This document shows, in pieces, positions 60,884 through 62,341 of a stretch of DNA of 64,000 nucleotides. Within the stretch, counting starts at the first letter, position 1, and the number at the start of each line of letters is the position of its first letter. The notes under the pieces are model-generated. The model saw only the letters and a program-made list of their open reading frames with translations. It searched no databases and had not been told where the DNA came from. This DNA comes from Sphingomonas sp. SORGH_AS_0950 (GTDB lineage: Bacteria; Pseudomonadota; Alphaproteobacteria; Sphingomonadales; Sphingomonadaceae), in NCBI RefSeq assembly GCF_030818415.1, contig NZ_JAUTAE010000001.1, positions 2,382,001 through 2,446,000 of the forward strand. Direction: 5' to 3'. The position numbers were made by a program, and so were the translations under genes.

Positions 60884-61021
60884 GGCGCCGTACATGACAG
60901 GGGGCATGCCAGCAGGGCGCAGGACGATGACGGCACAGGGGTGCGCCGTCGATCGCCGTCTCGCGATGACGGAAAACGGGTCACACGCGGAACGGACATG
61001 CGACAGGTCGGGAGGGGGCGG

Positions 61022-62053
61022 ATGCCGATGAGCACCGACCTCTATCGACGGATCGGCCGGTTTCTCGACGATCATCGCCTGTCCCCCGATCCGTCGCATT
61101 ATGCGTTCGTCCACGCCATCCTGACCGATCCGAACGGCGGCCTGGCGCGCGCCGCCGCGTCGCTGATCGATGGTGGCGTGCGGTTGCACCAGGACGATAT
61201 CGTCCGGCTGGGAGGGGGCACTACGGCGGCCCGTCCGGAACCGGTCGAGCCGAAGGTCGAGGCCCCGCCCGTGCGCGATCATGCGGTGCCCACGGTCGAC
61301 AGCCAGTCCGATTCGCTGGCCGCGCAGACCCAGGGCCATGTCGAGACGTTCCTGGCCATCCTCCGCTCGGTCCAGGCCGACGCCACGGCCTTCGGCGCCG
61401 ACCTGGCCCGCAGCGCCGCGAAGATGAATCGTGCCGAAGCGATCGGGCTGTCGGCGCTGGCCGCGCTGACCGGCGAGATGCTGGAGCGGATCCACGCCAG
61501 CGAACGGCGGCTGCAACAGGCCACCGCCGAGGCGGACGCGCTGCGCGAAAAGCTGGCGGAGGCGCGGGCGGCCGCCCGGCGCGATCCGCTGACCGGGCTG
61601 GCGAACCGGCTGGCGTTCAACGAGTCGCTCGGCCAGTGCTTCGAAGCGGTCGATCCCTGCCATCTGGCGCTGTGCGATATCGACCGGTTCAAGCGGATCA
61701 ACGACGAGCATGGCCATGCGGTCGGCGACCGGGTGCTGACCGCGATCGGCCAGATCCTGGCCGAGGAAGGGCAGGGCCATCTGGTGTGCCGCCATGGCGG
61801 CGAGGAATTCGCCATCCTGATGTCGGGCATTTCCAAGCGGGACGCCACCGCCCTGGTCGAACGCGCCCGGCAGGCGGTGCGCGAGCGGCGGCTGCGCGTC
61901 CGCGAAACCGACCAGTCGATCGGCCAGATCACCATCTCGGCGGGGATCACGACCTTCCGTCCGGAGGATACGCAGGAGACGCTGTTCGCGCGCGCCGACG
62001 AGCTTTTGTACCGGGCCAAGAATGATGGCCGCGATCTGGCCTATGCGGATTGA
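61022..62053 (+). CDS. GGDEF-domain diguanylate cyclase, soluble
   Basis: 343 residues, no membrane helix. An N-terminal sensor-like part (residues 1-90: DLYRRIGRFLDDHRLSPDPSHYAFVHAILTDPNGGLARA), a long helical coiled coil (about 95-185, ending ASERRLQQATAEADALREKLAEARAAARRDPLTGLANR) and a GGDEF domain with DIDRFKRINDEHGHAVGDRVL and the active motif GGEEF near 260. No RxxD inhibition site precedes it. The ATG at 61022 is chosen for the GGAGGG five bases before it; 61028 is the alternative. Confidence 0.9.
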   Translation: MPMSTDLYRRIGRFLDDHRLSPDPSHYAFVHAILTDPNGGLARAAASLIDGGVRLHQDDIVRLGGGTTAARPEPVEPKVEAPPVRDHAVPTVDSQSDSLAAQTQGHVETFLAILRSVQADATAFGADLARSAAKMNRAEAIGLSALAALTGEMLERIHASERRLQQATAEADALREKLAEARAAARRDPLTGLANRLAFNESLGQCFEAVDPCHLALCDIDRFKRINDEHGHAVGDRVLTAIGQILAEEGQGHLVCRHGGEEFAILMSGISKRDATALVERARQAVRERRLRVRETDQSIGQITISAGITTFRPEDTQETLFARADELLYRAKNDGRDLAYAD

Positions 62054-62056
62054 CGG

Positions 62057-62175
62057 ATTGCGCCATCCGGTGGCGGATTTTCCGGTATCGGCTTGGCGCA
62101 ATTTGCCAGATTTTCTCGGGATGAATAATTATCTGTTGAATATCAACGCTTTATAAAACTGGCACGCTCTCTGCA
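62057..62175 (+). promoter_or_regulatory. Sigma-54-type promoter with upstream activator palindrome and IHF site
   Basis: -24/-12 elements TGGCAC-GCTCT-CTGCA at 62160-62175, keeping the GG-N10-GC spacing required by RpoN. Upstream, TATCAACGCTTTA (62141-62153) fits the IHF consensus WATCAANNNNTTR exactly. Further upstream, ATTGCGCCA (62057-62065) and its exact inverse TGGCGCAAT (62094-62102) form a split palindrome of the kind bound by enhancer-binding proteins. The order UAS-IHF-promoter is the classic sigma-54 layout. The expected transcription start is near 62187, about 47 bases before the ATG at 62234. Confidence 0.8.
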
Positions 62176-62233
62176 AAGCTCCCGGCATCGGTCGCCAAAG
62201 GGTTGGCGACCCGATCGAAAAGGGAGTTCCACC

Positions 62234-62341
62234 ATGTTCCAGACCATCCAGGCCCGCCAGTTCCTCGTCTCCTGCATCGGCGCGCTGCTGTTCGCCGGAC
62301 TGGCCATCACCTCGGCGACGCCGATCCTGCCGATCGCCTGA
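62234..62341 (+). CDS. 35-residue hydrophobic peptide under a sigma-54-type promoter
   Basis: Family not recognised. ATG at 62234, TGA at 62339-62341, with AAGGGAG about seven bases upstream. The peptide begins MFQTIQARQF, then has one hydrophobic stretch (LVSCIGALLFAGLAITSA, about 11-28) and ends PILPIA. It could be a membrane miniprotein or a cleaved export signal with a tiny mature part; the ITSA segment before TPILPIA resembles a signal-peptidase site. It is the only gene that the promoter at 62057-62175 can drive before the convergent PEBP gene. Stress or envelope regulons (PspF, PrsR-type activators) commonly use such promoters, but the link is conjecture. Confidence 0.75.
   Translation: MFQTIQARQFLVSCIGALLFAGLAITSATPILPIA

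Follow-up and report, generated by a model that had tools for sequence, protein, structure and literature searches.

In the 64,000-nt stretch of Sphingomonas sp. SORGH_AS_0950 DNA analysed here (hereafter the window), a gene of only 35 codons is probably an orphan target of PspF and sigma-54 that belongs to the Sphingomonas psp regulon, and it would encode a conserved membrane micropeptide with an accessory part in the Psp response. The conservation of the peptide, the purifying selection on its gene, the promoter, the enhancer sites in common with psp and the presence of both PspF and RpoN in the genome were established by computation. Together with the psp operon itself and one further candidate, the gene gives a well-bounded predicted PspF regulon for an alphaproteobacterial genus. 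The features of the locus are collected in Table 1.

Table 1. Features of the peptide locus, in window coordinates.
Feature	Position	Strand	Basis or remark
GGDEF (diguanylate cyclase) gene, directly 5' and codirectional	60941..62053	+	Pfam PF00990, E 6.8e-38
Distal PspF-type site ATGGCGCAATCCGTCAA	62050..62066	-	Second-best psp-matrix match, 10.6 bits; -110 from the -24 box; holds the left palindrome arm
Left palindrome arm ATTGCGCCA	62057-62065		Read from sequence
Candidate middle PspF-type half-site GTGGCGGATTTTCCGGT	62070..62086	+	GTGGCGGATTTTCC common with psp sites of close relatives
Main PspF-type enhancer site TTGGCGCAATTTGCCAG	62093..62109	+	18.8 bits, psp-site matrix
Right palindrome arm TGGCGCAAT	62094-62102		Read from sequence
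IHF consensus TATCAACGCTTTA	62141-62153	+	Exact match; conservation in text
Sigma-54 -24/-12 promoter TGGCACGCTCTCTGC, GG-N10-GC	62160-62174	+	Sequence and conservation
Possible outer helix, left arm AGCTCCC	62177..62183	+	Fold; between -12 box and predicted start
Predicted transcription start	near 62186	+	Usual 12-nt spacing, prediction only
Inner 5'-UTR hairpin	62186..62217	+	Fold, pair counts
Possible outer helix, right arm GGGAGTT	62222..62228	+	Fold; covers Shine-Dalgarno GGGAG
Shine-Dalgarno AAGGGAG	ends 7 nt 5' of ATG		
35-residue peptide ORF MFQTIQARQFLVSCIGALLFAGLAITSATPILPIA	62234..62341	+	Profile conservation, pN<pS, predicted helix

An earlier note, made from the letters of this DNA, had proposed that a small hydrophobic ORF lies behind the promoter, and we found that this ORF is a real gene of 35 codons, which is conserved and under purifying selection. 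A search with the single sequence detected the peptide in 48/151 Sphingomonas genomes, and a 23-row profile matched in 117/151 (110 of the 136 genomes of good quality), leaving 34/151 genomes of the genus without a profile match. Peptide and promoter are both present in S. paucimobilis, S. pseudosanguinis and S. metalli. Conservation among sphingomonads, on which the earlier note had made its reading depend, thus holds for the peptide and also for the promoter, since the -24/-12 box was present in all of the 60 later (second-round) loci, which are profile matches that had not been used to build the profile and from which most of the weakest matches were left out. When the whole family was searched (genus included), the profile matched in 63/397 genomes, with many weak matches, and 28 of the 29 new loci fetched from this search (7 from the genus) have the promoter.

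We then compared the peptides of 90 loci, the 30 of the first round and the 60 of the second; all but one are 34-36 residues long, the exception having 41. The C-terminus reads P-[IVLF]-[AV] throughout, with Pro at -3 and a final Ala or Val in 90/90; residue -8 is Ala or Ser in 90/90, and charged residues beyond position 16 are absent from all 90. In pairwise comparisons, pN was lower than pS in 20/21 and 84/91 pairs (7 and 14 thinned sequences, respectively, the pairs not being independent), and AlphaFold predicts one helix over residues 2-28 (mean pLDDT 86.8). Compared with Pfam and NCBIfam, the window peptide matched 0 families at E up to 1, a relative matched DUF7472 below the cut-off, and the homologues that protein searches returned for a 41-residue relative, as well as for the psp leader described below, were unnamed or labelled 'hypothetical'. 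Such a gene is easily missed by ORF callers, as had been expected, and the two kinds of micropeptide are absent from the family libraries. As a separate observation, a second small hydrophobic ORF, MNRSILIGLIAFSTTILLIATQTGGALA-like, lies directly 3' of the peptide in 20/22 first-round loci outside the window clade (L010-L012 and L015-L031, by eye); it was not seen in L013 and L014, nor in the window clade L002-L009.

The -24/-12 box itself is present as the earlier note described it. The pattern TGGCACGN5TGC has 13 matches in the genome versus 27 for the reversed control, showing that the pattern alone is not above chance; the promoter is credible because it is conserved across loci, and not because of a single match. 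TGGCACGN5TGC is found in 29/30 first-round loci and TGGCATG in the remaining one (L022 belongs to a tandem pair as its second copy and has its promoter in common with the first). In the second-round loci, where no box is missing, TGGCAC is kept in 59, and the box lies 66-79 nt 5' of the ATG. A chance alignment of motifs in front of a spurious ORF, for which the frequency of the bare pattern could be taken to speak, is hence practically negligible, given the box in 60/60 later loci, the C-terminus constant in 90/90 and the low pN. Upstream of the peptide, a GGDEF orthologue is present in 29/30 first-round loci (tblastn) and in 52/60 second-round loci, and this gene is a possible source of read-through RNA into the peptide gene.

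Two other elements of the promoter region had been taken as part of its architecture, an exact IHF consensus and a split palindrome, and both stood only in part. The IHF consensus is where it was placed (1 occurrence in the window vs 0.15 expected), but an exact match is found in just 6/87 related promoters (0.3% expected from mononucleotide shuffles), so that it is not generally conserved and was rejected as a defining element. Likewise, the palindrome arms are both there, and a scan for the two arms with a gap of 10-40 nt found them at a single place in the 4.39-Mb genome (3 contigs), but the palindrome is not one operator and is not conserved as such: the relatives instead repeat a 17-mer at -67 with 23-bp phasing. 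As far as can be judged from the sequence, the palindrome is made up of the facing half-sites of two separate PspF-type 17-mers, namely the main site and, in reverse orientation, the distal site.

The enhancer sites of the peptide locus match those of the pspF-pspA gap in both sequence and position. When 57 peptide promoters were scored with a matrix derived from 18 distinct psp enhancer sites, their best matches averaged 13.9 bits, compared to 1.05 (sd 3.4) in mononucleotide shuffles, and the best match was at -66 to -69 in 25/57 and at -90 to -92 in 18/57 (43/57 together); the genome's own psp site is at -91. The consensus by which the psp sites were chosen had been noted by eye after both sets of sites had been seen. 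The candidate middle half-site of the window falls within the -90 to -92 band and is not among the two best matrix matches here. The enhancer core TGGCGNAANNTNCCA has three occurrences in the genome, at psp, at the peptide locus and at L139; the last has no sigma-54 box nearby, and we rejected it as a target and take it as a chance match. In other genera, the best matrix match is in many cases weak or at a different position (e.g., L096, L098, L103, L106 and L111), and in E. coli the matrix gave a weak match in the pspA gap (P 0.038 and 0.033) and did not find the pspG enhancer (P 0.64).

The genome contains seven strong Sigma54_activat matches, one of which is PspF (NCBIfam equivalog, 479.2 vs the cut-off of 443.6 bits; 49% identity to E. 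coli PspF). The AAA+ part of PspF was found with E below 1e-100 in 149/151 genomes of the genus, and RpoN is also encoded in the genome. From the nature of its enhancer sites, PspF is the likely activator of the peptide gene, and the link to envelope stress, which the earlier note had raised, is likely by the same route, as the sites are of the PspF type found between pspF and pspA. With seven strong activator matches in the genome, another enhancer-binding protein (of the NtrC/NtrX type, flagellar, or another of the remaining six strong AAA+ activators) might drive the promoter instead. We consider this improbable, since the promoter carries the enhancer sites of the pspF-pspA gap, and these are absent at the three other sigma-54-like sites of the same genome that were scored (L050, L051 and L054; 0.6, 3.7 and 3.7 bits). 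Of the three, we take two to neighbour genes of the flagellar type and the third to precede a glnB-like gene; the scoring did not extend to a further seven TGGCACGN5TGC sites.

The psp operon to which the peptide gene can be compared is like it in enhancer sites and promoter, and begins with a small leader ORF whose N-terminus is similar to that of the peptide. In the window genome, pspF is divergent from a sigma-54 promoter that is followed by a 48-codon ORF and pspA, and a small ORF lies between promoter and pspA in 28/30 psp loci of the genus (filtered). Family-wide, a leader profile matched in 90/249 genomes and 44/96 genera, with many weak matches, and for 25 leader loci fetched from the family, pspA is the next gene in 24 and the promoter is present in 23. 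Since leader-like ORFs precede pspA in many of the family's genera, Psp models that start at pspA may overlook the first gene of the operon in this family. No ORF is annotated in the pspF-pspA gap of E. coli, and the available portions of two Psp surveys do not mention a leader ORF before pspA (PMC11237479, PMC9239133). The N-terminus of the leader resembles that of the peptide, and a direct profile comparison (hhalign) gave a probability of 10.7 and an E of 0.0029, by which homology is not established; the peptide profile also matches one leader ahead of pspA (L110), and several loci of other genera are matched by both profiles. In five genomes of other genera (G383, G224, G291, G179 and G261), there are 4-5 leader-like matches each, some weak and some in tandem, which suggests that the leader-type peptide has expanded in these genomes.

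The similar ORF ahead of pspA, as well as the second small ORF that many relatives have just 3' of the peptide (by eye), could mean that both micropeptides are leader peptides, where the sensing step would be the translation of the nascent chain or its insertion into the membrane, perhaps with stalling at the proline-rich end, and the peptide itself would have no job. We see only a slim chance of this: no small ORF lies 3' of the peptide in the window or in its clade L002-L009, and the gene that comes next in the window has the opposite orientation.

An exported TonB_C-like protein (149-171 aa) with the same kind of promoter and N-terminus is encoded at four loci in other genera, L107, L111, L244 and L249, the TonB_C-like match of L111 being below the family cut-offs; in L244 and L249, this gene is directly before pspA. 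The presence of a similar N-terminus on an exported domain at these four loci points to the micropeptides being export sequences whose tail is very short. A related reading keeps the same control and makes the product a secreted micropeptide: the hydrophobic stretch would be a signal peptide that signal peptidase cuts after residue -8, and a heptapeptide such as TPILPIA would be released to work beyond the inner membrane, either as a signal or as the ligand of a protease that reads C-termini. The Ala or Ser at -8, the Pro at -3 and the uncharged stretch after residue 16, each constant in 90/90 loci, are consistent with this, as are the four TonB_C-like loci; the conserved tail, however, fits an uncut, anchored peptide too, and the structure model is a single helix over residues 2-28. 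We therefore regard secretion as unlikely, though it is the strongest of the alternatives, and favour an anchored membrane peptide.

For the anchored peptide under PspF control, the following course of events can be proposed, in which the activator, the start site, the topology and the role are all inferred. Upon damage to the inner membrane, PspF would be freed from PspA, as in enterobacteria, and would bind 17-bp sites that lie about 67 bp and, more distally, about 90-110 bp 5' of the -24 box. The DNA would bend back, with the help of IHF where a site exists, and sigma-54 polymerase would start near 62186, giving a short mRNA with a 5' hairpin from which the 35-residue peptide is translated. 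The peptide would then enter the inner membrane as one helix, with the N-terminus inside and the tail P-x-x-P-I-A outside, and most likely serve as an accessory of the Psp response, having the role of PspG but not belonging to its family. PspG of E. coli and Yersinia is likewise a small PspF/sigma-54 product encoded outside the psp operon, and its gene lies behind a codirectional one, which in E. coli is dusA. With 80 codons in E. coli, pspG is longer, whereas the window peptide has 35 residues and no match to a PspG profile (Pfam and NCBIfam, E up to 1). In the open-licence PMC literature, we found no paper on a Sphingomonas Psp system or on such a peptide.

We next looked at the RNA between the promoter and the ATG. 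In many loci, the region from -11 to the ATG folds as an inner hairpin and an outer helix over the Shine-Dalgarno. In 20 chosen sequences, two-sided changes were present in 6/7 outer pairs, and the whole structure had 44 two-sided cells compared to 16.6 (sd 4.1) in shuffles (0/500); the number of pair types in the same 20 sequences was not raised (20 vs 19.1 in shuffles). For the outer helix, there were 51 two-sided cells in the first 36 loci (vs 19.3, sd 6.7; 0/1000), 22 in the 60 later loci (vs 24.6, with 58.6% of cells paired vs 59.0% in shuffles) and 77 in all 96 loci (vs 49.1; 0/1000). Of the later loci, 58 could be compared with covariance models (L307 and L311 being excluded), and the model with the outer helix scored higher than the one without it in 20 and lower in 38. 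The alignment of the later loci is not structure-aware and their UTR lengths vary, which may hide a helix that shifts in position.

The duplex energy between the left arm and the Shine-Dalgarno region does not depend on such columns in the way it was compared, that is, between native and swapped arms. Native arms gave -7.88 vs -5.68 for swapped arms in 36 loci (0/2000), -8.28 vs -7.00 in the 60 later loci (0/5000) and -7.82 vs -6.67 when the later loci were thinned to 47 (0/5000). The longest Watson-Crick run in the 60 later loci was 4.53 for native, 4.11 for swapped and 3.46 for shuffled arms. Over 96 loci, the mean probability of pairing with the last 22 nt before the ATG was 0.47-0.83 at -8 to -1, which is the left arm if the start is predicted by the 12-nt rule, 0.50 and 0.31 at +1 and +2, and 0.59-0.69 at +3 to +5.

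The upstream ORF is codirectional in 94/96 loci of the genus (partly by a coding-bias heuristic), the exceptions being L089 and L305. In 21 loci of other genera, 15 of which have divergent neighbours (by the same kind of heuristic), native arms were not better than swapped ones (-5.92 vs -6.36), and the psp leaders, whose neighbour pspF is divergent, had a weak arm effect (72/2000; 191/2000 when thinned). Pairing is weaker in the other-genus loci with divergent neighbours and in the psp leaders. The idea that the helix depends on how the upstream gene is oriented was rejected all the same: the comparison is confounded with clade, the other-genus loci with codirectional neighbours showed no clear difference (P 0.37), and L089, with its divergent neighbour, pairs strongly. 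We also rejected an opening of the Shine-Dalgarno that is specific to the start site, since its unpaired probability in the transcript from this site rises from 0.23 to 0.40 in 36 loci of the genus and equally in the controls, from 0.28 to 0.50 (21 other-genus loci) and from 0.31 to 0.51 (28 psp leaders).

A sigma-54 start usually lies 12 nt after the C of the -12 box. With the start presumed there, the left arm lies upstream of it, so that a sigma-54 transcript would lack this arm and read-through RNA would carry it. The read-through RNA might then be silent and only PspF-activated transcripts be translated, which would confine the peptide to membrane stress. We had already thought this doubtful and now hold it to be more doubtful still, roughly one chance in a few, because the column counts of the later loci and the model scores did not confirm the helix. 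The reading nevertheless offers a clean test of a sigma-54 start site as a translation switch. In T4, late transcripts start past one hairpin arm. The T4 hairpins hide the Shine-Dalgarno by a helix, as proposed here, and the peptide locus differs in its bacterial sigma-54 promoter, in an arm 5' of a start that is predicted and in a helix partly supported by sequence. The T4 cases are I-TevI, soc and e, where hairpins hide the ribosome-binding site on early transcripts, according to the part of the source available (PMC2988022). By analogy, the codirectional read-through pattern possibly fits a gate of the T4 type, although orientation and clade are confounded, L089 pairs strongly and the predicted opening of the Shine-Dalgarno does not exceed that of the controls.

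A third PspF target may be a 73-codon exported ORF that follows the site C1:3490672 of the genome (L052/L223), a candidate with two PspF-like sites of 12.4 and 11.2 bits. Its product carries the motif TGSRIPRKICRT (L052/L223 and L225-L228), and homologues of the protein were found in 5/150 other genomes of the genus (6/151 with its own). A TGGCA-type box ending in TAATGC is located 62-195 nt before the match in 5/6 loci, its own genome included, and was not found at L224. In L223, L225, L227 and L228, a GTAACTC that adjoins the -12 box on its 3' side is complementary to a GAGTTAC at the Shine-Dalgarno (by eye), with the same arm geometry as at the peptide gene, these four loci being apparently close relatives and not independent evidence.

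Finally, the Rfam family RF03032 (narK RNA) resembles the peptide locus in that a sigma-54-like box is followed at once by a hairpin. RF03032 matched the window over its full length at 62161-62230 with 21.9 bits, below the gathering score of 43.2, and did not match any of the 14 other loci tried, of which 12 are peptide loci. Since the model starts with an apparent sigma-54 -24/-12 box and a hairpin, the family may partly consist of promoter DNA.
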